Shown here: positions 1 through 51,200 of the stretch, in pieces
Position numbering within the stretch: the first letter of the stretch is position 1
Layout of the letters: every line of letters begins with the position of its first letter
Assembly (NCBI GenBank): GCA_026419785.1
Contig: JAODTK010005914.1
Span: 62,001 to 126,000, forward strand
Origin: Sclerodactyla briareus
Lineage: Eukaryota; Echinodermata; Holothuroidea; Dendrochirotida; Sclerodactylidae
DNA: 64,000 bases
Direction: 5' to 3'
Position numbers and translations under genes: made by a program
The notes under the pieces: model-generated
The model's database searches: none
What the model saw: the letters and a program-made list of their open reading frames with translations, nothing else
What the model was told of the DNA's origin: nothing

Positions 1-243
1 CAACCATCTCAACTGCCAGTACACAGCCACCTAGGGAAAAACCTCAGGTGACTGCTGGGATTGTCCCCGCATGTGGTTTCTTGCAAAGCGTTCACTGATA
101 CACTCCTCGCCATTTCCTTCTGCTGCCCAAGGCTAATAATGCATTGTATCTCATGTGCTTGTATAAATGGATTGTTATTGTTTTGTAATCAATCATTCTA
201 TTGAATCAATTCATTCTAATTGTTATCTCTCATCATCATACAG

Positions 244-419
244 GGACTCGTCTTACGCAGTGGAGCGGTCAGCCTTGATGGACCATTGTCTCGCCTGCCT
301 GAAGACCATCACAGCTGTACTACAGAAATGTGTGCAGTCACCAGTAACAGCAGAGGATAATGAGCTTTCAACAGCTTTGAAAGATATTCTAAAGCTGTCT
401 GATGATATATTGTCTGAGG
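244..419 (+). CDS. THADA: THADA-like exon (N-terminal part)
   Basis: The open frame starts after a pyrimidine-rich stretch ending in TACAG and stops at a GTAAGA donor. It encodes DSSYAVERSALMDHCLACLK then TITAVLQKCVQSP and an acidic tail ending LSDDILSE. The leucine- and cysteine-rich helical pattern suits an armadillo-type repeat protein. It lies on the same strand and upstream of the recognised THADA exons, so I assign it by position. I could not align it to a precise vertebrate segment. Confidence 0.6.
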
Positions 420-3202: not shown

Positions 3203-3238
<36 letters not shown>

Positions 3239-24200: not shown

Positions 24201-27200
24201 AGGCGATAATTGTTAGTGAAGCCCACAGCAGGGTCAGTATACTGACAAAATCAGAAACCATGTTTCTCAGCAGGTGATCGTACTTTAGGTCACATGCGTA
24301 GAAACAGAAAGTATATATCACCATACATTTTTGGTATGATGTCTCAAGATTTTCAATGCCATTTGATGAATTTGACTGTGATGCTGATCCCACAGTGGAA
24401 GTATCATGTTCCTCGGGTTTCAAGACCCCAGTTGGCTTCATAGCTCAATTGGTAGGGTGATTGCACATGAACTCAGAGGCTGGTTGCTCAAATCTGGTGG
24501 AGCCATGAGCTTTTCACAATCTCCAGATTCCCAGCCTTCCATGATTGCCATGCTAGGTTCTCACTCACGGGTCTCCAATTTTCCAAAATATATATATTAA
24601 TGTAATACACAGCCCCTGTGCTGCAGCCTACCAACATATTCAAAATGTACATGTTAGCGAATAACACATTAAGCCACAATTTGGCAGGGCTGTCGCAGAT
24701 GACCTCTAATCTCTTACAAGGGTAATGTTGATTAGTTGGAGGCTGTCATTAGACTGACACCTGTTTGGCCCTCATTTACCTTTCCACCTAAGTTCCCACC
24801 TACCTGCGATTTTGTCCTGGATAAGATCTCACATCCTCTGTCGGTCATTGCGGCTGAACTATAGAGTGATAAACATAGATATCCCTCAATCACGTATGCG
24901 CTTTTTCAGGGACATGCAGGACATTCCCAGTGGGTTGGCGCTATTCCAGCGTGGTGGTATCCTTATGTCATGAAGTACCTGGAGTGGCATCGCCGACGGT
25001 CTGCAGCTCGTCACCAGAAGGGTTCTTGCCCGAGAATGAAAAAGGTAAAAGGGATGGCAGCAGGGCTCTTTTACAATGGGTGCACTTGTTTTCTGGTTGG
25101 CATTTGATGTGGTGCATTCTCAATGCTCTGTATACCTTATTATAACATGAAATGCATTCAACTTTGGTACACAACTGTGGACTTAGCACAGTCATTACTT
25201 TTTTGAAACTAAAAGATGACCTCCACTCCACGACTGACAAAATGGCTTTCTTTTTTTTTTCCCTACACTCTAAACTTTAGGGACCATTCCGATTCAGGTC
25301 CATAACCTTGAGAAATTTGACTCAGATTCATACAATTGAATTTGAAGTAACCTGCCATTTAAGGGAGGAGCAAATTCAGGCAACCATTGAACTAGGCAAA
25401 TATCCACAAGCAGCACTTTTTGCTTCAACACACAATGCGCTGTGATATTTACAGAAGTAGTTTAATATAGCCGCTATCAGGCCCGTGTTTTAGGAAGTGT
25501 TTGTAGGTTATTGAATGGTGGTTTGGCCAGCTATTTATTTAACTAGGTATGCGCATATCCTTTCCTGTACGTTTTGTGTTTCCCTGCATCCGATGCTGTC
25601 GGACACAACGTTTCGATGTGGGCTTAGTAATATAGAGCAACACAGACTCATGAAGACTACAGTTGAGTGGTCACATGACCTATAATCAAGATCAATTAAG
25701 AGCAACCCTTGGATCTAAGTACCATAATCACTCTATGAATTAGAATTGTTGTTAATTTTGTTGCTAGCAATATTTCGCCAAGGTACCTCCAACCCCTCGT
25801 AGCATGGTTATAGGCCTGCTGTATTAAAGACTGATGACAACATGTGGGACAATCGGGTAGGTGCCTCAGAAGGCAATTTATGTTACCACCCACACAGTCC
25901 TTGTGATCTTACAGACGTTTTCAGGCACGCCTGAAGATGGGGGTGTCATCTTCTGGTAGTCACCCTCTGAGGTCTTCCATGTTTCCCCACAATGACCTTG
26001 TATGTTGCGGGAGAGCATGAGGAGTGTCACTGACATTGGTTCACCTAGCTATGACCTTACCTCTGGAAGGCGAAGACCTGTACATGCTGCTTGTAATCAT
26101 GTAAGCTAACCCTGAATTTTACTAAGTTTAATGTCAAAGTTTTACCTGGCCTCCATGCAGATGTTACAGTTTGCTGTGACTAAACTAAGGGAATATGGAA
26201 ACAAACACAAACCATACCAAGTGTTGTTACTGTCCTTCCGTCCTTTACGCGCGTTAGCAAGATTATTCAAGAACCGTATGTGCTAACGTGATGTAGTTTG
26301 GCATGTAGAACCTGGATGACAGGTATGAACTGATACAAGATTTTCAGCAGCCTAAAATATGCTAATTAAGTGGTCTAACTTGCAATAATTTATGCAAATG
26401 TTAAAGTTGTCAGATTCTCACGAGAACTTGTTGGATGTGTCTACCATTGTTCCCGAGAAATTTAACAAGTGAAGTCGGGTCACTGGAGTCTTTCATTGTT
26501 TAATTTTGCATAATTTAACAATTTTTGAAAGTCGTTTAGATTCCACACAACTTGGTAGATGTGATCCACCTTTGATCCTGATAATTTTTGAAGTGACAGC
26601 TGGGGTCAGTAGAGGTCTTGTGATGTGCCTAAATTTGCACAATGTATTCAATTTCACACTTGGTCGAATTTGCAAACTCAGTAGGTATGGTTTCGTTTAA
26701 CATTTTTCTGAGCGAATGTGTTTGATTTTCCGCTTCGATTGAATTCCATTATATAATCGCTTCTGTTAGAATAAAGCACTGAGAACGAGTAACCATAGCT
26801 CCTGTGACAATTGTGCTGTTCTACACAAGCAACCCTCTCTTACCCAACCAATTTATTCCGTTGAAATAGACCTTCAAAAATCCGGTACATTTTTGTTTCC
26901 TCTCTTCTTGCCTGGGACGGGGACCAAATGTGGAGGTTTCCTAGCTTCTTTAGAATAGCACTGAGGAACGAGTAAACCATACCCCTTGAACAATTGTGCT
27001 GTTATACACAAGCAAACCCTCTCTTACCCAACCAATTTTATTCGGTTGAATAGACGCTTTCAAAATACTGTAACATTTTTGTTTCCTCTCTTCTTGCCGG
27101 GGACTGGGGACAAATGTGGAGTTTCCTACAAGATTAGATATATATTGGAACATCTTTTGACTGCTGCAATGGGGTAGTTTGTTGGTGTGTGGGGGAGGTG

Positions 27201-30200
27201 GGGTAGGTGTTTGCTGCCTGGCAGGGGGGGGGGGGGGATGGCAAATCCTTGCGCTTGGGAAATAAAAGGTCAATGAATAATGAAGTAATGAATTTTTAAA
27301 AGGCCAAAGAATCCCTGGCTTCTAAGGGGATTTAGAAAAAGAACATTTCAAGTTTGGATTTTGGGTCAAAGGAGTGAGCTGACTGAGCTATAATCTATCC
27401 AAATTTTGGGTATTTACTGATAGAAAGTGGAAGGGGGGGGGGGAGGGGCATGAAGAGGAAAAAGCAAATTGAGGGACTTTTGTAATAGAGTCAAACTTAT
27501 TATCGGGTCAGTTTTTTAGTTTTTATGTTTTTCTATTTAAAATAGGTGATGTCGTTTTGCCATGACGATGGTCTTCATGAACTAGTTGGTTGTGTATAGT
27601 GTGGTAGTGTAGTGAATAATAGAACCACCGATTGCGAAACCAGGCGAGATACTTTTTTGGCGACGCCTTGTCTTAATAGGCCTGTTGATCACCTTGTTTT
27701 TTGTTTTCATTGGAATTACCACCACAGCAAATCAAACAATATCGCAGAGCCATTCTATTAAATTAAATTGTTACAGTCTAAAACACTCCATAATCTCATG
27801 GCGATACATTAGGTACACTAAATGAAGCTGGGAAAGACACTGTTGTAAAATAGCCATTGCTGGAAGGACTGGAGCATCTGACTCACTAAGAAATTGCTGT
27901 GGTATCGCGTTTGGAATTCCCTCCGCGCGATAGTATTGGGCAGCCGAAACTTCACCATTTTCGAGGGTAATGGAAAAGGTGAAGACAGTCAGACTTATAT
28001 CAGTATGAAGTGATTTCCTCTTTCTCTTTTACTCTCTCCTTCTTTTTTACTTACGCTTTTTTGCTTCTTTGTCTTATACAGGTTGCTCACTCCCCTTCTT
28101 TCTTTAGTGTTCCATTGTTGTGGTTTTGGGGTGGAGCGGTGGATAAGCTGTTTATACAGCCTTTTCATTGTCTTTCTCTCATTCCAGTACTTGATATCAT
28201 TTGGACGATAATTGCTATTGCTGTTACATTACATGTTGTTTGTTGGGAATGGATAAATGAATTGAATTGAATTTGGAATTGCAGCCAGGACCCCCTGTTG
28301 GGTCCTACAGAGATTATGAACTCCGATGTGTGTGTCGCTCTACATAAAAAATAAAGTAGGCGAGAACAATTGAGGGGGGGAGCTTTGGCACTTCTAGTTG
28401 AACCAGAAGGTTTAAAATGGTAGATTGGATCTTAATAATTTATAGGTGTAACCAAGACTTTTGTGAAGGAATTACTTTCTTTCTTCGGCATAGGAACATC
28501 TGATATATGATCAGCTTACAAAATTATTATAACAGAACATTGTTATGATAGCTCGTTAAAAGGAGTCGAAGGCATTTTCTGGCTACTATTACTAAATGGG
28601 AGAAAGCCTAGATTTCATCTTGACAGCAGTTATAATTACAGGGATTATCCCAATGTGTGACCAATAACACACAGGCCACATATTGTTTTTTTGCTATCAG
28701 ACTCAGCGAACCTCAGGTATATTACAAGAGTTTGATTCATCATCTGAGATTTTAGTTAGTGGACGACATGGGCCAATTTGCTTCTTACAGCTACTGAGGA
28801 AAAGCGAGTCTAAGCAAACCAAAGGGGGGTGCATTCGGCTTGCATATGCTGGGTTTGAAAAAACTCTCGTGCCACATTATGGAAGGTAAGAAGCTTACTC
28901 AAGAGGATACGACAGTCTTTAAGTATTTAAAGAAGCTGCTCCCAGTTAAAGTAGCTGAGATTCATATGGTGTGTCAAAAGGGTCATAGCAGGCGATGTTG
29001 AACGGACAGTGTAAGAACAATCTTTGGAAGTTCTCTTGAGAAATTAACATATCCTACCAGCACAAACCTTCACAGATATCCTAGAATGGCTTATCAACAA
29101 TTAAAATAGTAAAACATTGAGGATGAATTGGATACAGTTTAATGAAGGCCACTCAGATGACAGGAGAAATCGCTTCTCCAGCTTCCTGCATAATAGCAAT
29201 CACCCTTGTATTAATTAGCACCATGAACTTTATTGCAAACATTCATTTCTAATACGTGTTCTCTCAATCTGTTGGAAATATGTGGGGAAAGCAACATATA
29301 AAAATGAGAATGAATCGATGCAATTATACTATAATTGAAGCCACAATATGCAATAATCATGTCTAATTTTTGGTTAATGGGACCCAACTGACAGCAAATG
29401 AGAGGAAATCTATTCTGTGTCTGTTGTACTGTAACATTATGTAATAAAGTAGCATAGCTAACATTCCTCAATAATTATGTATTTATTTTTGAAGGCAACT
29501 TTGCAGAAATAAATCTGTTCTCAGAGCTCTTTACATTGAAACAAGAAAGAGTAATATACAGTGAAGAAGAAAAAGGCTACAAAATGATGGGGATACTAAA
29601 ACTTCCGAACTAAGAAAATGAAATGGTTAGCATGCTTCCGGACTTATATAAACAGAATGTTTCTAACTATTTTACACTTGACAAATCCACCTATACCTAA
29701 TGTGATTGACTTTTAAAAAATTTGTAGTGTTAGACCTAGACAGGTTTGTCTATAACAGTTACCATGCCATTGTATCATTTAGGCTCAATTCAGGAGGTTC
29801 GTTCATTCGTTCCGATGACAGCTGAGCAAATGGAATCACAGTAAATTCTAATATTTTATGTTTTAGGACAACCAATCAGTTTGCAATCGCCTCTCTTCCC
29901 AAAAGAGTGGTTTGGAGCAGATACTCCGTGAGGTTAACTGGAGGTACTGAGGTACTCTGTGCTACCAGGAGGAGTGCTGGGGTACCATTCGCTGTACAGG
30001 TAAGTGACCGTTCACATAGGGAAACTCTATAGAGCTATAATACCCCCCCTCCCACATGCATTTCAGGGGACATCCCATTTCCAACATGGCTTGCAGGAAA
30101 GGCGAGCACCGTTCAGGCAGCAATGGCCCCTAAGTCCTCTGACATTCATAGCATTGGGATCATTGGCCCCCTGCAGCTAGGCGCCTGTGTCCAGAGTTTT

Positions 30201-33200
30201 GCATAATTTATTATTCCTCCTAACTTGTGGGATGGTCCATGGATTTTTTTCTGTGAAGGCTCGGAACTTAGACTGGGCAAAATCCAGGGTCCAAGCAGCG
30301 GAGTCATGAGTCGAGTCACCAAAGCCCCGGGTCTAAGTCTAAGACCCGAGTCCTTCCAACTGGGTCTCAAGACGGTCTCGGGACCCCATAAACCAGAACC
30401 GGGTCCTCCGACACTGCTCCACATGTAAGCGAAATTGTACTGAAACCTTCAAATGTAGGAGGATCATGTGGGAAGCGGGTTACAGTCATGCGTTGACATG
30501 GAGAGAGAGGGCGATGAGGTGTACAAATAGCATAAGGACTGGCTGGGCGTGGTCGTCGATGTGAATTGTGACTCGAGGTGAGAGGGTCGTTTTCTCATGT
30601 CTTTCTTCAGGTTGCAGCAACCGGGATTTCAAAAACTCGTATCGACGGCACCGGGAAAGTCTCAGTAGTGACGTCTCATAGCCATACAATTGTCGTCATT
30701 CAATCTTTGTTTTCTTTGCTTGAACACAAAGTCAGAAAGAGATTAGCAACATTTTTATATGTGCATATTTGTCTTTGTGTCATGCTGTTCCATAACAGTT
30801 TTCTCGAAGCTATGAGCATGTTTTTGAAGGATTTTTTTTTTATGTAATAATAATCCTGATTAGAATTTGGGCATAAAGTCACCTGATTGAGGCAAGTAAA
30901 TAGTGTATGTTGCGCGGTGTTAGGATAGCAGGATCAAGGATGATAGTATGAGCTGAATTGTTGGGGTGCAGGCATATAGGGGACCGATATCAGATACCTT
31001 TGTATGATGGGCTTTCCAGCACAATTGTTTTACGTAAGTTATGTTAATTTGGGCATAATTTATGTAAGATTGTCAAGTTTGTCAGTTTTTAGCTGAAACT
31101 TGGTGAATGCGGCTAACCATCGTCCACACGAACTTCAAATACAAATTTGTTGGGTCCCGGAGGTTGTTTCACTGAATACTTTAGTTAACATTTTCCACAG
31201 AATGTGATGCCATATCATACGTGTTATTTATTATCTTATTTAATGTGTGAAGCATAAAGCTGGTAACTATATCCCCTCTATGGTGCTTTTCGTTGTGCCC
31301 TTATTATCCGCAACAACCATTTCCCTCTTTCGACCTCTCAGATCAGAATAGTTTAACTGCTACATAACATAATAGAAACAGCCACTGACCACAGTTCAGC
31401 ACTTCAAGAACAAACTTGTTCCACATTCTTCTGCATTTTATAAACACCTTTCACAGGTAATTTTACATGAAACTAAACCTTTTCGATTCCTTGATGAAGT
31501 CAGAGGAATCTATGCACTCATGACAGTGTGTTGTGTGTGTGATGCCTGGCTTGTAGTCACAATAACTATCAGATCTGGTTGAGAAGCTCATACTTGGTAG
31601 GTGCACCATAATGATTCATGGAACCCTTGTGGGAGTCCGGTCAAAGATCATTGCGGTTCGCATATATAACATGCTTAGTCCGGGATTCCTGGTCCAATCA
31701 AGCTTGAAATTTGGTGTGTATTTGCCTGTTAGGGGATACAGACATCATTTGTGTGAAGAAGGACAATTTTGTGGTGGAAATTTTTTGGCCAATTTCAGCT
31801 TGCAAACGTGAATAACTTGACCCAATCCAGAATGGATGAAGAAAAATCGTCATTTGTTTAATTTTGTTCCCCATGATGAGTAAATTACCCTATGGCTTTG
31901 AGTTAGGTTGGAGGTCTTTTGAGGTCACCAGGCCAGTTTTGAAACCCTTGAAACATACATAAGTTCTTTTTTTTTTTTTTTTTTTTAACGTCATCACTTG
32001 CCGGACAAAGGACCCTACCTATACGGCCGCCCAAGGGGTGCGGAACCTGGATTATATCGCCGAATGTCGCGGCGAAACTCACCAGGTACACTGAACAAGG
32101 CGATGCCTCTTTATGCGGTAAAAGTCTAGAGTGGTTGGACAATCCGCTGGAATTTGGTGCTTTCTGGTTTGTGTTACATGTGTGAGTGGAATACATAATG
32201 GAATATGTTGAAATTATTCTGGTTGTACTTCCATGGTGCATATTCCCAGGCACTATATTGGTGTCTTTATATCAAGGTTTTTTAGGTGTTGCAACAAGTC
32301 CATAGTATGTCATTATATAATCCTCATGGAGTTGTTTTCAACATTAAATGAATGTTGTCTGTTGTTCCCTGAATCCTCACGTTTGACTTACTTTTCTCTA
32401 TTTCTGGGAAAGGCAAGTGTTGGCACAGAACCGGACGTGATGGGGATACCAACTTCAAGAACACCATGACGATACTGACCCAGATACTTCTGATGACGAC
32501 AGTGATAGCAGTGTGAGGACAGGTAGGGATACAATGTCTCTTTTCTCTGTTCTCCCTACTGGATTAGATATTCTCGATGGCAATGTACATGTTATTATTT
32601 ATAGCTGTTCTCTGTATCAGCAACTCAGATGTACAAATAAACCGCTCTAGCTGACTGCATAACGGTATTCTGTATTGTGCTGCGGATATCACCTAATTAC
32701 TCAATGTTTCTTCCATCAGTCTTTTTTTTTATCGCACACAGTATTGTTACCTGATTTCTACTCCACGTCTCTGTTATGCTAGAGGCCAATGGTCAAATAC
32801 AAGTGACTTGCCTTTTGTACATTTTATTTACTACATATGGCAGCCAAACCCCCTACCAAATTTAGCCGCCCTAGTGAGCTGAGTGGGCGCAATCTATTGC
32901 CAAATTTGGCTTTTGACATCATGAGGGAAATCACATAGTCCCCTGTAATAACAAATTCCCATCATGTACTTTAAAAATCTTAAGTCAATCATGTACTTTT
33001 TAAAATCTTGTAACAAACAAGTTATAGATGGGATCCTAATAATAACTTACAAAATCCATTCACCCAAATGTTAAAAGAATTCTCTCATTCATTTCTGAGT
33101 GAATACATATTTTCATTTTGAATACCATATTCTGGTACAATGCTGCCAGAAAAACTGCTATTTACTGTTGTAGAGTCTATTGGCAGCCTTGAGAGGTTTC

Positions 33201-36200
33201 CCACCGTGATGTATAAGTCTCAAATTCCTTGGAGTAAATTAAAATAACTTCTCTTTTTTAATAACAAGGTCAAAATAGGCTGGAACCTCCAAATTTGGGG
33301 TGTGGGGGTTTGACATTTCTCTTCTTCACTGTGCTAGTTCAGAGGAAAAACTGTACATGCCATTTGCCTAAAATGCCAAAGGTATGATGAGGTAGGTTAA
33401 CGTGTTCAACAAAATCTCAGCAATGCCTAAGTCAACAACCTTATGGGTGTAGAAAGGCACAAGACAAGGGGAGATGGCAAAGTAGGACCTGTAGTTGTTT
33501 CTCTTCCTCTTTACAGGTTATGCTCTTAACATCTCCGAGTCTCTGTGTATCGAGACTCCGACTGGTTGAAGTGTGCGGTGATGAAGAGTGTTTCCATTCC
33601 TGGCTGAACGGTGTTCAGGCGCTGTGCAGGCTTCGCTCCACCACCAGTGGGCGAGTGAGTGAACTGTCCGAGCTTCATAGCTGAATCCCCTAGTGACATG
33701 CACTCTGTGCCTGTCTATGATAAGTGGAGCACCTTGGGAATGCTACTAGGATTTACCACACAAAGAAGGAGCTCATACGCCATTCTGAGCCTGGTCATTT
33801 GCTGGAGGCGGTGTAATGGATGAACGTCAATGCTATCAACCGGAGAAACTGTACATTTTTAAATCATTGGAAAAATTGCCAGAAATTCAAGGTTTATTAC
33901 CCTCTTCTCTGCCTCTGACTGTCAACACCCATTGATATGGTGTTGGAAGCGGAGATTCAATGAATAATCGGTACCATCCAGGTATGTGATGCAGTATGGT
34001 TCCATCCAGGTAGTGAGAAGAATGGTACCTCCAGGGTATGTGATGCAGTATGGCCATCGGTATGTGATTCTGATGCAGGTAGGTGTACCATCCAGTATGT
34101 GATGCCAGTATGGTACCATCCAGGTATGTGTGCAGTATGGTCCACCAGGTGATGTGATGAAGGTTTGTAAAGCAGTTGATGATGTGTTTAAAAACAATGT
34201 GTTCAGTGACCAGAGGATAGTTGGCCTGATAGGCAGGCAGCTATTGTACACAAGAAATAGAAGACCTGATGTTGTTTGATTTATTGCTCGCAGGGATAAA
34301 TTCTTTCTGCGTCTCTGATTAGTGAGATCCCTTTTGCTCTTCTACCTCCACAGGTTCGAATTCCTCTACCTTGCTTCAGTGCCATGGTCACGAGGATATT
34401 GGTGCAACAGAGAGAAGGATGAACTAAGAGAAGAACTGGTAAATTACAGTCTGATTGGAAAAAAACTATTTCTACATTTGTTTTCCAGCTGATGGGAGCA
34501 ATTCACCAGGTGGGTGGAAACAGACGCCTCAAGCCATTCATTATTAGGCAGAAGTCTAGGGACGTGAAGTGGTCTCATGTTGAATGATTTTAACTTTTTG
34601 CGATGGAGAAGATAGTTTGTGACTTGATGCAGATATAGTTGTAAGAATTTAAAGCCCAATGGTCATGTTAAATATGACTGGACTTTTGTACTTCTTCTAT
34701 TTATTAATATGACAGACGAAACGCCCCACAGGATACATTTGAGTGTACCCATAAGGCACGATCAGCTAAATTGCAAAATCTCCCTTTGACATCACAGGGG
34801 GAACTGCAGAATCCCCTATGATACAAAGTCAATGTATAACATGTACTTTTGAGAATATTTTAGCAAACTATAGTTGGGATCTGAATAACAACCCACAAAA
34901 TGGTTCAGAAAATATTTTTTAACACGTCTCACTTTATTTGAATACCTTTTTTGGTCATTCTGTTAACGGCACAGAAATGCAGCATTCACTGTGTAGGGTC
35001 CTTGTGCGCCCTTGCATTGTTCCCCCTGTTATGTCATAGATTCCTCAAATTTCTCACAAAGAAATTTTAATATTTTCACCAGCAACATGCTAGATACCTG
35101 CAATAAGGGTGTGGGGTTTTGACATGGTCCTCTTTCACGGTGCCAGTTTTTAAATCAAATCTGTTGGCCTCTAATAGCAGGTATTATATCTATTGATCAT
35201 GAGCACGGAGTGTCAGGGCAGGGTTTACGTGGAGCTATTATATAACTGGATAGGACATGACATGTATTCTAAGAAAAAAGAGAGTGAGCTACACGGAAGG
35301 ACAAGCATTGTATTTATATGTGTAAACAAGTATATTCACAAAATACAGTTTTGTGTTACTCAGAATTGCATGCAAAGCTGTATGGGACAAATTCTGGGTA
35401 GCATGGAATGAAAAAGTATGTGTGCATGTAATATCACCGCAAGGAATGCAATTGCGTTTTAAGCAACGGGTGTGGACCTTTTTATAAGCCTATCATATCT
35501 GGTGGTGGCCTGATGCCGAATTAATTGTACATTGCCTTGCACGTAAACATAGTCGAAGTTACAAATACAAGGGCTCTATTTTTTATCTCTCAGTATTCCC
35601 ACATACCAGTGTCAATCCACTATAGGAACATTATCGATTGATGGATGGCCGGGGCTAGGTTTTACTACTGTCGGCCCTGTATTGCTGTGAAAGCAATAGA
35701 GAAGAGTATCTATTGATCAAACATCTGTGCAGTAGGGCAATGAGTATAATTTTCTATACTCTCGTGCCTCCTGTTCGTGTTTCTATATACGCTCAGGTGG
35801 GACAACTGCTTCAACGACTGTGGTAAATCCTTGGTGGGAAGGATCATTCTGTTTGAAAAGAAGCAGGGTGAAATTCCGCATTTCCCCAATAGACAATTTG
35901 CCCCTTCAGTGACGGCTCTGCCAAACAAATTGGAATCTTTTGGTGCCTATATATATTACTCCAAGGGTCTTTTTAGAATGCACAGACCATCTCTCGATGA
36001 CATTGTGCATATTCCTGAGTATTGAAGTATGTATGGAAACATCACAGTTGCCCTCAAACCAGAATAGACGGCTGTAGGCCAGGCTGCGTGCGCTTCCACA
36101 TTTTGAATATTTAGCTCTTCCCACAAGGAATCTCAACATCTCCTTTTCCAAACCATCAAATGCTATGGCACTTGGAAGCAGCAATAGAAATTAAGGCATA

Positions 36201-39200
36201 ACACTGAAAGCGAAAGACATGGCAAAATTTTCTGACACAATGAACTAATGAGTTGCTCAAAAATTCGCATGATTGGCCTCACTTACTTCCTTTTTTCTTT
36301 CTCAAATTTTTTGAGGATTTTTTTTCCCGGTACAGTGTTCTTCCTTATCGTGCGGCATGGAAAACCTGGAAGTTCCTAGGAGTTTACCTCTGTTACTCCC
36401 AGGCCTTGAAAGTCATGGGAGGCTTTGTCTTTATAAGTAATTGTGGAATTTCTCTAATGAGGGATAATCTAATGCCTTGTATTATTATTCTTATAGTCAG
36501 TTGACTAAATGCAGCATGGGGGTGCCATGTCTGTTCAGTTCTGCCAACACGTCTAGGTCTTGGAAAGTCATGGATATGAAAAAAAAGATGGAAAGAAGTT
36601 ATGGAATTTATGGCGATAAAATTTTAAGAAGCCCCCTGGGGGAATTCTGGAACGAGTGAATACATTGACGGCTAGATAATCCAATGGTTAAAAGTTGATT
36701 AACATCAGTGCGCAATTAAATTCTAAAATAATGCATAATAGGCAGCTTTGTAAGATGTTTTAATATAACATTGGGAGACAGAAAATAATGTTGGAGATCC
36801 CTTCGGCTAATGCACTACTGTATTTCCTTTCACAGTATGGGCAGTTCGCGAGTTCTTCTCTCGATTTCCAACCCTGCTCCCATTCCTAACTCGAAAAGGC
36901 TCGCAGGAAAGTGTTCAGGTCAAGGTGAATTTAGTGTAACTGACTCCATGCATAAGAAGAATACAAATATTACCAAGATATGAAAAGCTGGTGTTCTTGT
37001 TATTGTTCATGTTTAGTTATAATGGGACTCGACAGAGTGCCTAATACGTCAAAAGAGCCTCCAAGCTATTTAGGCACACCATAAAGAACAAAATCGGCAA
37101 CAACAAAAGGCAGAAAGAAATACAGAATAGGGTCAACACAGCGACAAAGATAAACAGATGAATTGATCATAAGCTACAGAAAATATTGAGTGGTAGAGGT
37201 GAAGCCTTGAGACGGGACTTCGAAAGGTAGTGACGCCCGATCCAGTTGAAAAGGGTTTGGGAGAGCATCCCACAAATTAGGAGAAGGCAGAAGCAAACAA
37301 ATGTTTGCCATAGGATCTTAGTAGATTGTGCATACTGTGATCTTGAGCTGTTGCTCAGATATGGGCTTCAGAGCTCGGCAGAAGGAACATACAGCCTCAC
37401 ATGCTCTTGAGACTAAATCAGGAACCGGCATCAGGTATGTTACAGTGTAATGAGTAGGAAAATTTTTTAGAGGCAATTCCTGCCTTATTGAGGGTCAGTG
37501 AGGCCTGTTAAGGGGCAGTGTTGGTTGGAGGCAGCAGAGATATGTGGAGCCATGCGGGCATATGTTGTGGGGGCACGGTTCGCTGACGGCTTATAAAGTC
37601 TTCAGAGAGAGCCAAACAACGATTGCGAGCCATCCAACCTTGAAGTAACAAAGCCTGAATGAGCTTAGTGTGGTGCTCAAGGGTTATTGGCAAAGCTGCT
37701 CCCAATCATTCTAATTACAGTTAGAGCAGAGAAAGGGACGTAATATATCCTATAATTGCAAGCTTGGAGTTGCTGATTCAATTGTAAGGATTCGCAACTC
37801 TGAAGTAGAGTGTTAAAGTAATAATCCCTAAAGTGTAATGAAGAGTGAACACGACTCTTTCTGTGTTCTCTCTTTCTTGGGTACAAGCTGTTGTAACGGC
37901 ATGGAAAGCAACGTTTATTTGTTTTCTGTATGATTGAGTAGCTATATTTTTCTTATACTTTTGGTCATCGCAAATTTCCAAATATTATGCTTCTCTTTCT
38001 ACTTCCTGTCAGGCAATTGTTGGCGAGTGTCCGTCTCCATCCCAGTCTCTCGCCGACCTGATAATACTGTCAGGCATCTACACCTCATCCTATCAGGAGG
38101 ACGATACCTAGGAGTCGCCAGCCATACCATTAGAGTGGTCATAGTGGTCGCCTCATTATCAGGTGGAGTACTTTAAATACCTGACTAGACCCTGACAGTA
38201 CGGTCACCTCTATCCATCATATCAGAGGACGATACCAGTCCCAGCCACACCATTAGTGTCTAGTGCCCGTCCATTCATTATCAGGTGAGTAGCTTCATAC
38301 CCTGACTAAACGCACTGACAGTACGGTCCCCTCTATACGCTCAGGGCAGCCTCTATACCCATCAGATCAGATGGGGGACTCGATACCAGTCCCCCAGCCA
38401 CACCATTAGTGTCATAGTGCCCCTCATTATATCAGGTGAGTTACTGTTAATACCTTGACTAAACCTCTGACAGTACGGTCTATCTATAATAACCCATCAT
38501 AGTCAGGAGGACGAACAGTCCCAGCCACATCATTAGGGTCATAGTGGCCCCTCATTATGCAGATGAGTACTCTAGGCTAGCCTGACTAAACCCTGACAAT
38601 ATGGTCACATCTATACCCATCATATCAGGAGGACGATACCAGTCCTAGCCACATACAACGCCATTAGTGTCATAGTTGCCCCTCATTTATGCAGATGGAG
38701 TCCTTTAATAGCCTGACTGGACCCTGACAAGTACGGGTCTATCTATAAGTCTCCATCATATCAGGAGGACGATATCCAGTCATAGCGCATACCATTAATG
38801 TCATAGTGGGTGCCTCCCTCCATTATCAGGTGAGTAGTCCTTTAATAGTACCTGACTGGGACCCTGACAATATGTTTCGGCATTCCGCATCCATCTTAGC
38901 AAGTGAGACTGATACTTGTTCCATCCACACCATCAGTGTCATAGTGGCCCCTCATCAGATAATACCTTACCTGGATAAACCAGACAATATGGTCGCATCT
39001 GGCATCCATCATATCAAGGTTGATCGATACTTGTCCCAGACCACAGCCATCAGTGTCATACGTGCCCCTCATTATTCAGAGTGAACACCTTACCTGTATG
39101 AACCCAGACAATATGGTCAGCATCTGCAATCCCTCATATCAGGAGGACAAGACCAGTCCCGGTCATCCACGCCCATCATTCAGTGTCTAGTGTCCCACTC

Positions 39201-42200
39201 TCATGCAACAGGTAGTACTTTATCCTCACTGAAGCCTGACAATATGGTCACATCTATACCCACCATATCGGAGGACAAAGCCAGTCCTAGTCGACAACCA
39301 TCAGTGCTTCCCAGCCACAACCATCAGTGTTTTGTTGGCCCAGTCATGCACCACCCTGTCACTCACCAGCTGTGTGACACATACACTAGAAGCAAAGGAG
39401 ATTAAAAAAAAAAAAAAAATCAAATTTTTAGTTGCTTCACCTGCTCAACTTGTCATGAGGAGAGGTAATAATGTGATTGATTTGATATCTTCATTATCCC
39501 TAAGGTTTCCAATGACAGATTCAGAGAATGTGTGAGATCATCAAACACTCTTTGCCATTCACTTTTTCCGTTCACTTTCCTTCTTGTGATTTATTTTTAA
39601 TATATATTAGCCATTACCAAATTAGGACGCATAAAATTTCTCATATTTTTGTTTAATCCATAAACATTTCAGCAATGTCTCGGCCTTGCCAGTATATCAG
39701 CACGCACATGCACATGGCAGCTGAGAGCTATCAGGCAATAGTACCACTGAATGATGTCATAGCTGTAGCTAGTCTCCTTAGTCCAGTCACTTCCAATGTC
39801 TGGCCGAGGATAATAGTTTAATCATGAAATCATTCCATGGAACACTGCCATGGTGAGCTGCTTGTTCTCAGTGTTCCTTGCAGCTGTGCTTTGTTTATCA
39901 GGGTTTTCTTCCTATGCTTAAGTTTCTTGCTGTGTTTGGTTGGAGATTTGTATTTTTGTAAATTGGGCAGGTTTAATAGGAACTACTTCTGGGCAAGAAT
40001 ACCTCCTACTAGACAACTCGGCAATCCTACTGTAAATATTTTGGCAAGTATGGGACTAGACAAGAAAGTCTCATGACTATTATTGTTGAGGGGAAGTTGG
40101 GTGCACATCACAACATTTCGTCACTCACTGATTAGTTTTGCTTGCTGTTTGTAGATGAATTTTCAGGTTAAATTAAGCAGTGTTTCAGTCGCGATGTAGC
40201 ATAAAATCAGGCATGTTTTACAACACCTAGCTGTTAATATATGATCATTAGGTTATGACCCCATCTTTTATTCCCAAGGCAACATGGTCTTGCACTGAAA
40301 GATATAAATATTCGATCGATTAACCGAAAATCCAAAGTTAGCTAACCCTAATGAATCCTTTCATCCCTTCCTTTGTATTACGTGTCCATTCAGGAGAAGG
40401 AAACTCATTATTCATATTTGCTCAGCCATCTTGGGCCCTTATCACTTGAAAGGCGAAAGAATGCTTGGCTGATTTTTAATTCCTGCGGACGGGAGTTTCG
40501 AGGAATCTAAATGTCGTCAGCATAGTCTATGTTAGCCATGCGTGGGTGTGTGTTTTGTTTCATCATCCCATGCCTTGATGCATGACTCACTCTAATAGGC
40601 TTTCCAGCATTGTATTTGTAAAGACTGTTGTTGTCTCATTGGTCAATGTCTGAATGTGGAGCAAATACCAGTAATGTGAACTTTAGTTGACGCCCGGTTA
40701 GAGGCTCTTCACTCCCTATAAGGAGATTTACACATTAGTTTTAATGACTTCAATCAATGCCTACTTTTTGACTTAATTGGAATAATTCTTCTAGTTCATT
40801 TCCAATTCCAGATATCAAGGTTTTTGTCAAACTCCTTCCAGGGGTACCAGTAATTTGAAGTATAAAGCGCAGGCCAATAATTTTGTTCAGGAAGTCAAAC
40901 GGCATCTGTCGGGCACAATACTGTGCGCAATTGTTAGCACTAACACTAGCACAAATGCAACTTGAAAAACCTGGAATTAGAGAGGGCGCTCCAATGGCGA
41001 CTCTTAACAGCCGTTAACTTTGTGCTCATTCCTCCTTAGGGCCTGACGCATTTTTGTAGCGTCTAACTGTATCAGTCTCCTCATAGTTTGATTGTCTGGC
41101 TTTGGTGGTAATATTGGGCTTATGGTATCTATAGATCTATTGTGCTCTTGGCTGAATGACAATATCAGAAGTAGCAACTCCACAAACTCTTCACATGAAA
41201 ACATAACTTGCTTCGCCTGTTTCAGATATCTAGCCTGATTGATTGGGGCATCAATAAAGAAGAAGTGGGAGGCAGTTGTTGATGTCATTGAGAAGTTTGG
41301 GCTTATAGAAGTGGTCGCGCACTACTACCCTCTTCGGCTATGGCTAAGCTTCAGGTAAGTGTGAAAACCGAGAAACTATGCACTCTCGGGGGGTTATGGC
41401 TAGGGCTTCAAAAAAAAAAAAAAAAACCAAAAAAAACAAAAAAAAAAACGGGCCACAAGAAAAAAGGTAACTGTAAAACCCAAGAACTATGCACCCATCT
41501 CCACTAGGCTATTTTCAGGTAAGTGTGAAAACGCAACAGACTAATGCACTCTGACTATGACTAGCTTCAAGGTAACTGTAAAACCAAAGAATATGCATTG
41601 TAGTTTAATAGGTCACGTGAATAGTTTCATTTTGGAAGAATGGCTGAGTGATATTAGGAGTAACGGCTTTTGCAAGCAAACCTCCGGATTCTTAAGGAAT
41701 TCAGCACTTAAGTGTGTGTAGTGGCTGGTAACTTGCAATTGGCGATTAGGAATCATCTGAACACTAATAGTCGATAAGAGAAGGCAAGTTTAATTGTCAG
41801 GGCGCATTCATGCCAATTCTTGCTCATATGGGCTCAGGGTTCTCCTCGCTGAGTCCTTACTGTTGCTTCGCTAACTAACCCATAGAATTCAAATCGATCA
41901 AACCTCAAAGGTGGCTCTCAGACAATCTGGCGCTAACATCTCTCTGAGCGGGGGGTGATAGAAGCCCGATGGAACTACCAGTGATATGCCTGATTTTCAA
42001 CGAAGAGGAGACCCTTGTGCATCTGGCTGCTTCAAGACACCATGTTACATTATATATGATGTGTCATATAGCCGACGAAGGGACAGACTATCAGGCAAGA
42101 GTATATGAAGATTAGGGTGGCCAGCATCAATCATCAGCTTAGAACAGTCATTCTGAGGGTTTGCAGTCATATATTAGAACTAGTGTACTCTCGCAAAAAC

Positions 42201-45200
42201 ATTAACCTCGGAGAAAACATAGGAGAGAGGGGGATAGCCGGAATAAAGATGATAGGAAACGTAATTTATCATGCCATTACTGAATGACATATCTCTGTCC
42301 ATGTTTTACAGATGGGGAAAAAAAAACAGTGAGAGTAGCAATCCTTCTGAAATGAAATTAGAAAATGAATTGAGAATGTGATTAATTTCCATAAAGATCT
42401 CTAGCAGTATAGCGATCATGATACCATAATGTCCCTGTGACTGCCATTTAAGGTACTTTTCTGTTGGGCATAAACCTTCCTGACCAAAGATCTCACCCTT
42501 GTGACCATCACAGTACAGATCTATTGGTTAGGATACAATAACCTGTCGTTACAGGTGGTGTTAATGTTTATAAGTTTTGCCAAGTAGAAGACACTGTGAT
42601 GTATGTGATGATGTGGTCAGTCAGTATTCAGTAACACTCCCGGTAAACAATTTGAAAAAGGTTAGAAAATCAATTTGAAAACAGTTCTGTTTTTTGGTTC
42701 TTCTTTGTAGGGAAAACAAGTGCCCAACAACAAAAGCTGCCTATCTGGAGATTGCGAACAAGGCCATAATGGATGAGGCATGGATATGTCTCTACCCACT
42801 GAAGACAGATGTCACAGCTTCTTTGGGACAACAACGAGAGGAATTGTTCAGGACTTGTACTGTCAGAAATCAACCAATTTACATTGTCATTCCAACAGAT
42901 TACGTTCAGTTGTGGCCCTAGAACAAGCAGCGGCCTCATCAAGTACCTTTGTAGACTGTCAACGTTGTTCCGAGGCCAATGTGACAATATGTTGACTGGC
43001 AGCCAATAGGACGGCTATTCATGGGACCAAAACTCATCGCAGAGGGATCGTTGATGAGGCTGCTCCGCATCACCATTCTATGAGGTCAGGTCACTAGCCC
43101 TGACCACTCTACTGAACGAAGCTGCAGTGATTCTCGACACTGAAGTACTTCTAGAAGATCTAGAACCAGAGGAAGGAGAAGGACCTCTCGGAGGAGGGGA
43201 GGAGGGACTATTGTACTGAGGCGGGTGCAAGGGCTAGTGGAAAGGGACAGATAGGAATGTCTCGAAAAGGTAACAGTCTTGGCTGTAATCTGCTTGAATG
43301 AGAACTGTGTTTAAACTTAGTATGTTCTATAGTAAGCCGCCGAACTTGGGGCATTTTTCTAATTGGCCAGCTGACCCATATTGACCCTCTTCCGGACAAA
43401 TATACTGAAAAATGTGATTGATCTTATCCCATGCTTATGACAGGTACTCGTGATTCTCTCCAGTCGTCAACTTACACAGACAGGCGCCTAAGGTGGTAGA
43501 TCTACGGCCAGTCCAGTGAGCAGTTGGTTGCGAGGCTGTTGAAACTGGCAGACAGTCACCAAGTGAGGTGAGGCTTTTACAGAGGCGGTGGATGTGTGAG
43601 TAATTAGTTTTGTCATGTTTGAAACCACTCAGATAAAATTACATGGCATCATAGTAAACCGGAAATGCACTTGCTGCATGAACACTAAAGTGTTTGCGAT
43701 GGAGGGATCCATGGTGATCCTCAACCAACCTTGACTTCTACCGACTGAAGTAGTCTACTTGCCACATATTTCATCGAAATCTGACAAAAGTTGAAAAAAA
43801 CTGCATTAAAATCAAATATGACCTCCAGTGAATTCAAAAATGAGTCCTGCTGCAGTAGGGACTAACATCTACCTAGTTTAGTCCAAATTGACAAAACCTC
43901 ATGAAAAATTAGCAAATAGAGTTTATGTGACAACGCCAAACTCTCAAACTATCCGAAGTTACCATATGGACGGCATGAGTATACCAAGTTTTCAGTCGAT
44001 ACAGATAAGGCTATTTAAAGAGTTATTGCCGGATAATTGTCTGCGGAAGTCTCAGCGATGGAAATGGCCCCAGTGGCATATCCCAGGATACCACTCATGT
44101 TCAGGGATATGTAATTACCACGTCGGCACCACTTGACAATATGCTGGAAACTTTTAGGTAAGTTTGGAGCAATCTTCCATAGAATTATACAATTACAGAA
44201 GGGTGGAACCTTGAATCAGTCAATGAAAGAATCTCAAGGTTTATCTAGTTGTATCTATGAGGGGTAGCCAACTTGCATGTTAGAGTGTCGGATGTGATCA
44301 CTTGTAGCCAATTAGGAAAAAAAAAGCCGCCGCAAAGACTGAGAAAACTGGATTTTTCGAGGGGGGGGAGAAATTTTATTCACACTCTGTAGTCTCATAG
44401 TGAAAAAACTCTAATCATTAGGCGGATCCAATTATTCAATTAGATTATATAACACGTTATTGCCAAAATACTTACAATCAACAAATGAAAGCAATTTGCA
44501 GTATAAAATGGTCTGGCAACCCCGGGTCACACAATGCCAGTTCTATAAGAGGCAGTATTCTATTCAAACGCAATGTTATGAGAAATCTAATCTGCCAAAT
44601 CAACTCCAAGAGTCAACCCAAAGCAAGCTTTGACCCCCACTGCGTGCCGGGACACTACCTTATATAAATTGTATTAAAATGCAAGAAAAGACTGGACAAG
44701 GTAGAAAAATGAAATCTTGAGTTCCCCATGTAAATGCTAAAGTTTTGACAATACGAAGTGCTGTGTGGCCACATTTATATAGATAGGTAACACACCGGAT
44801 AACACATGTCATTGACATCACCCCACCTCTACCTTCAAGGTACTTCCAATGAGGCAGGGCCATGGTCTTGGGAGGAAAAGGGGGAAAAAAATAAAATGGG
44901 CATACTGCGCAGACACGCCTAGTTGCCGGAGCTATGATCCGGACAGATCGGCCTAGCCTACCTGTACCGTTGCTGACCTGAACCAGGTACTCATAAAGCT
45001 GCACAGCAGCAGAAGACTGGCTGAGGTTGGAAGTTAAAGAAAGTTTGCAGCCTAACTGAGTTTACTGATTACTGCAGACTACCTGCAGCTGATTGATTCT
45101 TCCTGCCAGAGAAGAAGAGAAGAAACAACATCCTCATCGGGGATCCATTCCCCACAATCTATGGGTGCCAAGTATCACCAGACCATTGGACCACGTTGGA

Positions 45201-48200
45201 TCGTGGTACCTGAAGAAGAATTCACAGCTGACAAAAATGCATCATCGGCATTCTCATTTGGCAATGACAAAGAATTGAAATGTTACACTTCAAAATGTTT
45301 GTCCAATATTGATTACCCACATATTTATGTATCGCAGGTGTGGCATTCATATTATGTGGGAAAAATTCCAAAAAAAGTTGAACCAACACTTCACGGTCGA
45401 AGGAAGTGGCCCATTGAATTTAAATTGCTTGGCAAATCAATACTTCCATTGTTATCACTACCTCAACCCCCCCCCCCCCCCTCCTTTCCCATCTCATGTT
45501 TTTGAGGGTTCATCTCTATGCATTAAAATGAAGGTTTTTTACTCCTGGAAAGACATTCTTTTCATGGCCTCTCTTCTGCTGTGGTCCATTTTCGGTTTTA
45601 TCGCAGTGAAATATTTATTACTGAGTGTGAATGCATTTTCTCTTGCAGTCCAATATCTGTGTTTCAGTGATATCTTTGACTGGCAAATTTCTGGAAAGTC
45701 TGCAGGTGAGGAACTTTGGTTAGTTGTAAAACTTTTGCTGTAATGGCATATTCTCAGTCAGTGGGTTTACTTTCTTTCTTCTCCTTTTTAGCCCCCACTT
45801 CCAAAAAGGTATAGTATGACTATTTTGATAATTGAGCCACTTAATAAATGGACGCCATGGCAACCATTCCATAAATGTTGTGGCTGGCCATAAAATTGAC
45901 TCTGTTGAGTCATGGGGACTGTGAAGTATTTCTATTTTCAGGACAACTGTTTGGCAACACTGTCCCTCGTGGATTTGTCATTGGGTGAACTAATGTTGCT
46001 GAAGATGTCTCAAATGAAGCACAGCTGACAGTATGTACCGCCCTCTGTGATGTGTTTGTCTGCAATTACAAGGAAGCAGGAGGCTGTTCCAGGTGATTAG
46101 CTCTATGTTAATTGTTACTGCTGAGTGATGCCAAACATTCAATGATATTAAGATCTTGTTCTCTCTTATATAGCGCTTTCCTATGTCAGAGACAAAATGC
46201 TCAACAGACATTACCCCTGATCATTAGTGACTTGTCACACCCATACTATACAGCATGCACCTCTTGCTAGATCTCTCCCGAGGACCATTTCAAGACGTCA
46301 CTTATCGTGTCCCCGGGGGGACTTCCAATAGGGCTGTCACATACAGTGCTCACTACGTCTTAACAAGTTCAACATCAACAAGGTACCCACTTTACACATG
46401 GGTGGGGGTGGGACCAATCAGGAGACAAGCCTTGTGCAGCAGCACTGCGGAAAAGTCCTCCTGATCCAAGCGGACTCGAAACTCGCAATCCATGGTTTTG
46501 CAGTCTGGAGCTCTACCGACTGAGCTAATCCTCTAGTGAAGGCTTTGTGCAATCACGACAAAATGAATGGTAAACCCTGTTCCAAGTCGTTCTATAATAT
46601 ACTAGACACTCCCCGTTATCTCTGGTGGCTGTTCAAATTGGAAATATGTATACTATTTTATACAGTCGGGTAGTCAAAGTCCTCCCATGGTCTCTACTTT
46701 CATAGTATATCATGGGTGCACTCAAACCAGATTGGTACCCAAACCTGGTCACTGCATACAAATGAAATTGAACTATGTGTACTGTGCACAATATTCTGAA
46801 TATAAACAATTGTTGGCCTAATCATCGTGAAAAGTTCCCAAAAAGTAATTTTGGAAGCCATTTGTAGAAAACTATTCTATTGGACCAGTTTGATCTTTTG
46901 ACCTTGTAGTGGTTAGAAACCATTCTGAAATCAGTCATGACTATAGTTTCACCAGGAAAAAATATTATACTGGGGGTGAATAAGTCTATTATGCTAATAC
47001 ACTATTTCTAATTATTTCTACTTATAATATTCCATTAAATGACCCAAATAAATACAGCTTGATGTTCCTAACATGACTGTGTTTACTGTTTAGGCACTGT
47101 ATCTCCTATGTGCAAAAGGCAAAACTTGTTAGTTGCAAAAACTGTAGTTTTTCCATACATATATCTCATCAAATTTCTCATTCTTTGTTATATAGATGAC
47201 ATATTGTTCGACATGCCATCAAAGTAAACTCAGTTTTGCTTCTCTTTCTTAAAAGGCTTTTATATTCAAATTCACAAAGTGATTGCCTAAGGGTGCCATC
47301 ATGCTAAACCCATAGAAACTCATTTACACCAGGATTGACTTCACACAATTGTGCCGTGTGGAATTATGAAATAACATTCGTAATGATCTTTTTGCTGCTG
47401 AGCACATTTGCGTATATATTTTATAGTACAGATTCATACACAACATTTTTTTCGATGATGTGTGTCACACATTGTTTTCTTCTCCTCGTCAGTGCATCTA
47501 TACATTAATCTATGGAGGTTGTTTGTGAAGTACTACTACACTCTGCACAAAGATAATGTCGTTAAACCAGGACAGTGAAATGCCTCTCTGAGACTGCTCT
47601 GATAGCAGGGATGCCAATACCAGGTATATGTGTGTTACTCTATCTCAAATGTTAACATTTGTTTGTTTAATCATATTCTCCATAAAGGGATAAATTCCAG
47701 GTCTGTTCCTGAAAGGACAAAACAGCAACATAGTCTTGTTTGTCTGTCTTATGCCAACACCAATGGTGGTTATCACTGCATAGGACCCAGCACACAACAG
47801 GCACAAGCCTTAGTGAACAGTCGGGTTGAAAGATGATGATGAAGAATTAACACCATCACCATCATCTGCTGTGTCCAAGGAGAATGACTTGCATCTGTGG
47901 TTGTGTGCGATTGACTTCTTCTCCATGTTGATCTAACCCTGGTTTGTCCCTCGTACTCGTTTTATGGGCAAACATGCATTTTATGTGCAGCCCCGCTCTG
48001 TGGAACAATATTCCAGTTATGATTCACGAGTCTCCTACTCATGAGAATATTGAAGCGGGCATTGAAAAACCCACGTGTTCAACTTATGATTTTTTGTAAA
48101 GTGCTTAGAATGCTGTATTAAGCGCTATATAAATGCTAGTTATTATTATTATCTCATCAGTCTCGAAGGGCCGGACGAGATATTGTAGTCACTTTGCCAT

Positions 48201-51200
48201 TTCACCTATATTTACTGTTGATGGTTGCCATAGCATTGCTATGGTAACCATAGTAGTGGTTAGTTAGGTATATCACTGAGGGGGTACCCATTGGTGGGGT
48301 ACCCGTGGGTGCCGGGTGATCCAGCAATGAGGTGCACTTGCGAAAGTGTCCGTTTGTGTGTGTGTTTGTGCGTTTGCGTTGTCCGCCAGATTTTTGATGG
48401 GTTTTCTCGCAACGATCTCCATTTTTGATATGGCTGACAAGCAATTTTGCACACACTTGATTAGTCACAAAAACACATCTTTGTTCTCAGAATAAGGTGG
48501 CAACTATCAAAATTGTGGAATTTAGAGGGCAAAAAATGGGAATGTTGGGGCCAATTTTTCTCAATGTTACGAATTTTGCACTATTTTCAAGATATGTGCG
48601 ATCGAGGCAGGAATGCTTTCCACTTGTAGCAATGTGTAAAAAGGCCACCAAATTACAATTGTTCCATGCAATCGCGAAAAATTTACCGAAAATGTTGGGT
48701 TTTAGGGGGGGAAAATGGATTTTTGGACAAATTTGGAAATTGTCGAAATCTGTCTGTTTCAGTATCATCGAAATTGGGACGGACTGAATGATTCCAAATT
48801 GGTTACAAAAGGCACTGGGTAATAAAACGAAGGGTTTCCTAGCATTTAGGCTGTAAATTAACTAAAAATTTTACAAATATGAATATTTTGGGGGAAGGGA
48901 AAACAGCGGTTCCCAGACATATTTTGATAAATTTTGTCTAATTGTGACTCGCGAAAATGTAGCAGGTAGAAAAAACTGATTAGTTCCACATTTGCGAATG
49001 AGATCCTGCAACTCTGGGATTGCCTTCTTGTTATTATTATTATCACCAGAAACACACCCGAGGACCACTTAATTCCTGCAAAGTGAGACTAGATGCATTC
49101 CAATCTGGAATTGTTCTGGGCCCAAAAGACCACCTGAAGATGTCGGTATTAGCAATAACATGTCTATAGTAAGTCCATTCACTGATGGTGATGGTGTGCG
49201 ATAGTTATTCTGTAAGTCCACGAAATCAGGAACTGGTAAAGCCAATATGTCGTTATAGAATTATGAAACAGCTTGAGTTGTGCATTGCCCCTTCTCTCCT
49301 GTAAAGTAGGCCAGGCAAGATGTTGCAGGAGCCTTGTGAAATTATCACAGTTTCACGAAAACCGGCGAACTTTAAAAATTACGGCACAAATTATGCAATA
49401 GACATGTTGAATGACCTCCAGTAACCCTGAATTCATGATAAAAAAAATTGGAACTCAAGGTTAAACCATACCCACCAGGTTTCATGAAAATCCAAGCAAC
49501 TTGAAATTTCGCATAAATTAGGCAAATTAGGTACGTTGAGTGATCTCCATTGACAGCGAATCTTTGTTAAAAAGTTTTGGACTGAAGGTAGACCATATTC
49601 ACCAAGTTTTGTGAAAATCTGGCCAAAAATTTTTAAGGTTTAAAAAAAATTAGCAAATTAGACGACTTAATTAGCATATTTTTACGCTGAATATCTAGTC
49701 AGTTCTTCTACCTTATTTCCCACATCTATGTGCCAAACCAAGTCACCATAGCACCTACAGTTCACCCGTAATCTTGCTAACGAGCCTCAACGATAAATTA
49801 CATAAAATAGGCTAATTACCTTACTTAATTAGTGGACTTTTGTGCCCAAAAATCTGATCAGATCAAATTCACTCAACCCCAATGCTACCCTGAAAAATTT
49901 TTCGCAATTGCCTTTACACCGTTCGAAAGATTGCCTCAACGAGAAAGTGTGACACACACACACATACATACACACACTTACATACACACACATAAGCACA
50001 TACAACACCAGCCATAGTGACCACTAAGTCTCCTCCTGAATTTCATTCAGCGTGACAAAAATAATTTAATCAGAGCTCTTGGTAGAAGTTAATTCAAAAC
50101 AAGAGGGTGCAACATGAATAATCTAGACTGATGGAATGACCTAGTGAATGAGCCTCACTTGGCTTCCTGATTCCCCAGAATTCAAATCAAACAGTCAATT
50201 ACTATATATGATTTATTTTGACAGGAGATGGGGTTAACGCTACGCTACACCCCAGCCATGCTATCCAAGTCGCTGTTGGTCTCTTCACTCAGCTGGTGAT
50301 GGAGATGGATCCGTCAGCCTTTTTATCTGAGCTCTGTTCTTGGTCCTCTCAGCCTCTCCTTGATGATGATGAAGAGGAGTCTGCAGCCAGAGATGTAAGT
50401 CCATCTGCCCCTACAGGTTACAGGTCAAGAGAATTTGCATCTCCGATTTTGTGTCACAAAAACATGACTTCTTTGATGGATTTGATACTGGTTATGACAC
50501 ATAATCAATGCTTATGTGTTTTGCGAGTGTGTTCTTCTAACAAGCCAGCAAAATTTCATGGTTAACGCTAACATGAATAACACACCCATATCCTAGTTAC
50601 TCCTTGCCAAAATGAGGCGGAATTTCTCCCCCTGTACTATAATCAATTGCTGCTCCTCTTTGCATTCACAAATGTCACACCTTTTCCATCTATTTCGAAT
50701 ATTAATGGTCCTTTGATATGTAAACTTACATTTTTTAAAGTATGGCAAGTTGCTTCAAAACCTACAGAGATGGGTGAAGCATATCTCATACCGACATTTC
50801 AAATTTGGAGCTTCTGACTATCATTTAAAAAAAACAAACTATTATCTGGTCCAATGACATCTCAAGAGGAACAAAATTAATGTTGCTATTGAGTTTAATT
50901 GTATATGAGTAATTGCTGATTATGGATTTCTCCATGATAGAAAGGTTTACTCTTGCCACCTAGCAATTTGGCAACTGCAATTGTCGGCATCTTACGACTG
51001 CCACCAATGCACTGTTAGTAGTCCTTTGAGTGGAATGCTGTTGACCTGAATGAAACAATTACATGGCTATATATACTTATTTCCATGACAATTTGCTTCT
51101 TTAAAGCATAATGTTAACTTTCAGTTGAACTTGGTGGAGCACATCCATGTGAAAAAGTGGGGGGTATATATCCCCCCATCCCCAAGGGACGTGTGCCCAT

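Follow-up and report, generated by a model that had tools for sequence, protein, structure and literature searches.

Several described systems place a tandem repeat at a splice site. The VNTR in intron 18 of ABCA7 starts with the GT of the exon 18 donor, and use of the donor one unit further on keeps 25 bp and leads to a premature stop (PMC5954066). In IFI6 (6-16, G1P3) downstream units of a minisatellite are reported to serve as donors, giving three mRNAs (Turri et al. 1995, cited in PMC4526556). Tandem arrays of dual-specific AG/GT splice sites have been reported in UBC and VCX3A; PMC10809524 describes recursive removal through such sites for UBC and suggests it for genes with tandem repeats. 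It is also accepted that introns can arise by tandem duplication of AGGT segments (PMC3443670), with a case in potato (PMC4974935). The array analysed here, which adjoins a THADA exon within a 64-kb stretch of DNA (the window), is a real exon-edge minisatellite and, given ABCA7, IFI6, UBC and the AGGT duplications, is of a kind already known.

The likeness to each of these systems has its limits. As in ABCA7, a tandem repeat follows directly after an exon and contains its donor, but the ABCA7 units are of 25 bp, in humans, with length and splicing measured, whereas the units at THADA are of ca. 120 nt, include ca. 96 nt of coding exon and are known from sequence alone. As in IFI6, the minisatellite supplies several splice donors, although donor use is reported there and the donors here are candidates, with frames closed as assembled. 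Each repeat unit in UBC and VCX3A has an AG/GT that is a potential donor or acceptor, as might be the case for the THADA units that keep the site; however, the units of UBC are coding monomers for which splicing was observed, while those of THADA are intronic and keep the site in 3 of 10. The intron gain model shares with our locus an AG/GT duplication that offers a ready GT...AG pair, but at THADA the duplication would have widened an existing intron, with no new intron shown.

The plus strand of the window carries a THADA gene, most likely that of a sea cucumber (Table 1). Joined translations of the putative exons matched a THADA-like protein of Holothuria leucospilota in a protein search (E 1.8e-21), the same query matched a hemichordate THADA-like protein at E 0.06, and tblastn with the Holothuria and hemichordate proteins found the exons ordered along the plus strand. 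The 25 segments that represent the gene were chosen, and some of them are weak matches. The original prediction had taken the coding part of the repeat for THADA sequence lying between the exons that encode FFSRFP and MAAE, and in this it was right. In frame-tolerant alignments to the Holothuria protein (P0001) the upstream (REFFSRFP) exon matched residues 1204-1217 at 11 of 14 positions (36847-36888) and the downstream one at 20 of 32 (39714-39811, two frameshifts allowed). Between them, 19 of 24 positions of 38035-38108 were identical to the Holothuria protein (three frameshifts allowed), and tblastn aligned an array copy (38590-38643) with THADA residues 1241-1258 at 72% identity. The string HPSYQEDDT is common to the array exon and Holothuria and absent from the five other references compared. 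Together with the Apostichopus match of the neighbouring gene, it makes a holothuroid the most likely source; a COX1 search gave no match. The acceptor of the array exon (ctctttctacttcctgtcag/G) scored 6.8 and that at 39673 scored poorly, at -1.2; a splice from the first donor to 39673, which removes an intron of 1510 nt, restores the conserved THADA order. All four matches of a protein search of the assembly fell, at the sensitivity of the search, on this single locus, and a second THADA copy was rejected. One weak second DUF2428 match lay on another contig and did not resemble the window at the DNA level (E 1e-3); a PF25151 search gave one sub-threshold match, elsewhere only.

Table 1. Features of the THADA locus and its surroundings (slashes mark splice boundaries; positions refer to the window).
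Feature	Position	Strand	Basis or remark
THADA gene, 25 candidate exon segments, first to last	242..51837	+	tblastn and frame-tolerant alignment to Holothuria leucospilota THADA (P0001)
Upstream THADA exon (REFFSRFPTLLPFL...; cag/TATGGG ... AAG/gtgaat)	36836..36924	+	boundaries by eye, unscored
THADA exon, 150 nt with first donor; 3' part is the array source	38013..38162	+	acceptor score, alignment to P0001
Minisatellite, ten units of 118-153 nt	38056..39360	+	starts: u1 38056 (exon end), u2 38189, u3 38310, u4 38463, u5 38590, u6 38721, u7 38861, u8 38979, u9 39102, u10 39233
Exon's own 5' splice site, CAG/GTGGAG as assembled	38163..38168	+	score 5.0; one extra G relative to consensus CAG/GTGAGT
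Intact u2 donor, CAG/GTGAGT	38285..38290	+	score 12.5; AG/GT acceptor-like too
Intact u3 donor, CAG/GTGAGT	38436..38441	+	score 12.5; AG/GT acceptor-like too
Intact u6 donor, CAG/GTGAGT	38830..38835	+	score 12.5; its AG ranks first among the acceptor-like AGs of the array
Rest of intron after the array	39361..39672	+	run of A at 39404-39419
Downstream THADA exon (...MAAESYQAIVPLNDVI...; MAAE exon), acceptor atttcag/C	39673..39811, end approximate	+	alignment to P0001
Neighbouring gene	58.9-60.9 kb	-	two database matches, one to an unnamed protein and one to a protein of Apostichopus japonicus (61% identity, 62% of query covered)

Ten tandem units of about 120-150 bp had been foreseen, and this is what the array contains. 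The first unit is the exon's own 3' end, and nine further copies, homologous to it and in the same orientation, continue to 39360. The consensus unit, of 122 nt, is made of ca. 96-98 nt of exon end, the site CAG/GTGAGT and ca. 24 nt of intron; the exon's splice donor was thus copied together with its coding part, as proposed, and all ten units are homologous to the exon end. The intron-derived part is shorter than predicted, 19-31 nt in the eight units so measured, or 21-31 nt with the cut placed at the CAG, instead of 30-40. Identity to the exon's own end is 76-86% for u2-u6 and 67-71% for u7-u10, and the ten units together depart from the consensus by 178 substitutions, with insertions in 48 runs and deletions in 24. 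In the unit tree u7 and u8 group together with 98% ultrafast bootstrap, and the other nodes have just 14-78%. Extra copies are peculiar to this exon edge: when the 25 exon segments were searched with their flanks against both strands of the window, one (38013-38163) had copies, with six matches at E <= 1e-3, and a wider exon-edge duplication in THADA was rejected. Searched as DNA by a method that can miss repeats, the whole assembly (319 Mb in 3171 contigs) yielded the array once.

Donors were scored with a generic donor matrix. The units carry the exon's donor region, but a strong CAG/GTGAGT stands at the donor position in 3 of 10, rather than in about half of them, and the ladder of equivalent 5' splice sites that had been envisaged is not supported. 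A dead donor, CAG/ATG, is common to u4 and u5, and the site is lost in u7 and u10; u7 has a donor-like site of middling score (7.5) off the donor position, at 38903. For comparison, the donor of the THADA exon ending at 29999 scored 12.7. We infer that the extra G in the exon's own donor is an ordinary assembly error.

The quality of the assembly bears on how far such details can be read. Under a strict frameshift penalty THADA showed 22 frameshifts and seven stops in 2887 aligned nt, while six reverse-translated relatives, used as controls under the same settings (20-23 of the 25 segments usable in each, the remainder dropped for short alignments), gave no stops, and frameshift counts of 0 in five and 1 in the sixth. 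At its loosest setting the frame-tolerant aligner over-calls (1-7 frameshifts per control), so the stricter figures were used. At the loose setting plus and minus frameshifts in THADA are nearly balanced (22 and 19), with 14 against 8 under the stricter penalty, and insertion runs between units exceed deletion runs just twofold, which makes the error signature not specific. The neighbouring minus-strand gene, compared with the Apostichopus protein P0122, has no stops and nine frameshifts in ca. 1.5 kb, of which four fall where conservation is high. Of the matches from family searches over the whole assembly, 5 of 11 for HSP70 and both for CCT contained in-frame stops; the four tubulin matches were free of them, which indicates that the assembly is not bad throughout. 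We have taken the THADA frameshifts as assembly indel error rather than the mark of a dying gene, and much of the indel variation from unit to unit is probably assembly error too. Since small indels affect both THADA and its neighbour, the unit lengths, the frames and the weak donor of the exon are untrustworthy, and it is unsafe to read this assembly unit by unit. As assembled, 2 of the 9 unit spacings are divisible by three, an unreliable figure.

What a later donor would do to the protein was examined on the intervals from 38163 to 38285, 38436 and 38830. All nine frame readings are closed as assembled, with 1 to 10 stops each, and the intron piece of the consensus unit has stops in all three frames. 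The exon would grow from 150 nt to 272, 423 or 817 nt. In pairwise alignments over Holothuria residues 1228-1290, 107 of 120 relatives had no gap and the largest insertion was of 4 residues; an inserted unit at the junction was absent in all 120 relatives fetched (119 from 120 listed of 835, Holothuria being left out, plus P0002). With the frames closed and the relatives lacking an inserted unit, a later donor would, as assembled, cut THADA short instead of adding the in-frame unit allowed by the original prediction, and the array copies probably add no protein. Isoforms made through later donors could be only truncated or non-productive RNAs, unless a second splice repairs them. An ordinary coding expansion was rejected, all frames being closed as assembled, and productive donor isoforms of the IFI6 type fail likewise as assembled, for want of an open frame.

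The history that in our judgement probably accounts for the locus starts with a single tandem duplication, in which the last ca. 96 nt of the THADA exon, its 5' splice site and ca. 24 nt of intron would have been copied into that intron. Ordinary minisatellite unequal exchange or slippage would then have expanded the segment to nine intronic copies. The exon's own donor would normally be used, giving the 150-nt exon, and the array would leave with the intron, its copies drifting free of selection; splicing from a later donor, if it occurred, would produce one of the three longer exons, with a premature stop. Most likely, splicing today proceeds from the first donor and the array is neutral DNA within the intron.

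An alternative is that the array acts as a true ladder of competing donors, giving a pool of THADA isoforms that would be mostly non-productive, so that unit number would tune the level of THADA by poison splicing, in analogy with the ABCA7 VNTR. Each of the three intact donors scores 12.5, where the exon's own, as assembled, has 5.0, and in ABCA7 retention of one VNTR unit causes a frameshift and a premature stop (PMC5954066); however, the weak first donor may itself be an assembly error, and the later donors lengthen the exon to 272-817 nt, which leaves this alternative unlikely. Taken literally, the donor scores of the exon and of u2, u3 and u6 favour a downstream donor. If the donors were used, near-identical 5' splice sites would stand in a natural series 150, 272, 423 and 817 nt past one acceptor, offering a test of the role of position in splice-site choice and of the tolerance of the cell to a minisatellite starting at a coding exon. 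Otherwise the array is a commonplace case of an exon edge seeding an intronic repeat.

The intact donors could also play a double role. The end of the exon is pyrimidine-rich, and for this reason CAG/GTGAGT is acceptor-like as well. If splicing were recursive or dual-specific, a unit's donor could be joined to the AG of CAG/GTGAGT in a later unit, regenerating a donor and removing units singly or in blocks; THADA mRNA would then stay constant whatever the genomic number of units, a self-cancelling intronic minisatellite. With an acceptor part of at least 1.5 and a donor of at least 7, thresholds chosen after the array was seen, there are seven AG/GT dual sites on the plus strand of the 64 kb, three of them in the 1.3-kb array, and nine on the minus strand, one inside the array at 38970. 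The acceptor part of the three array sites (donor part 12.5) scores 1.9-4.3, above 39673 (-0.4) and below 38013 (5.8) on the same scale; on the other acceptor scale the eight best acceptor-like AGs of the array reach 2.1-5.3, where 38013 has 6.8 and 39673 has -1.2. The use of tandem dual-specific site arrays in human UBC (PMC10809524) and the recursive sites reported at far ends of exons in human lariat data (PMC10156609) are consistent with such a process. Yet similar dual sites occur elsewhere in the window (four others on the plus strand, besides the nine on the minus), and an AG/GT with both contexts at each unit boundary, as in UBC, is found in 3 of 10 units under these post hoc thresholds. 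We regard recursive removal as distinctly improbable.

The remaining explanations turn on the assembly and on the state of the gene. False tandem copies built from noisy reads could make the array largely an artefact, and the abundance of indels in the assembly of this locus fits such an origin, but the units share substitutions, divergence is greater in the far ones, and subfamilies are not what random read error would produce. Support is weak at most nodes of the unit tree, which tempers the argument from subfamilies; even so, an artefact is very improbable. Least credible of all is that in this species THADA has become a pseudogene in decay, with the array decaying alongside it, as the seven stops and the frameshifts in 14 of 25 segments (stricter setting) might suggest, since codons are still conserved between frameshifts, the unrelated neighbouring gene has the same type of frameshift without stops, HSP70 and CCT matches contain stops too, and no second THADA locus emerged at the sensitivity of the protein search.

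Within the preferred history, in which the first donor is used, the reading of the exon end deserves comment. In frame-tolerant comparison with Holothuria u5 scored 76, the exon's own end (u1) 60 and u2 56; as u5 outscores u1, sequence alone leaves u1 as the conserved unit unproven, and we attribute its lower score to indels in u1. VIVAPHYQ, previously given as the THADA reading here, is probably in the wrong frame, and ISVIVPLII, one base off, resembles the ...KMIPLVIRC of Holothuria better. By eye, the ISVIVPLII frame would be in phase with the 39673 acceptor. The junction so drawn (by eye, not computed) joins the exon end ...ISVIVPLII-AG to C-AAT-GTC... and reads ...PVYQ... before MAA.

The repeats with units of ca. 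305-317 bp, found at three places in the window (see the table), have ACACGATAA in common among the consensus units of all three, and they possibly constitute a single satellite family. Four frames, with both strands represented, run open across the 27-bp array, for 171-203 codons each.

Other repeats and the neighbouring gene in the window
Feature	Position	Strand
27-bp array, ca. 23 copies	6708-7309	
Repeat, unit ca. 305-317 bp	8817-9537	
Repeat, unit ca. 305-317 bp	14919-16871	
Repeat, unit ca. 305-317 bp	53817-54408	
Apostichopus-like gene, related to an uncharacterized protein of Apostichopus japonicus	58916-60936	minus

A further tandem array, of period 28, lies in a THADA intron (33970-34159); its unit, GGTACCATCCAGGTATGTGATGCAGTAT, contains the donor-like CCAG|GTATGT, and no copies of the ends of the adjacent exons turned up in it when the exon segments, flanks included, were searched against the window. 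As for AG|GT sites scoring as both donor and acceptor, the one at 20309 (donor 7.0, acceptor part 7.3) immediately precedes the THADA segment 20314-20458 and, if real, would give an exon with a donor-like GT as its start. Another, on the minus strand at 38970 (acceptor part 3.4, donor 11.5), falls within the ten-unit minisatellite derived from a THADA exon end (38056-39360).

The Apostichopus-like gene carries nine frameshifts as assembled. Beside it the minus strand is open for 214 codons, a stretch that encloses three 60-bp repeats (61157-61344) with 88% matches and without indels.
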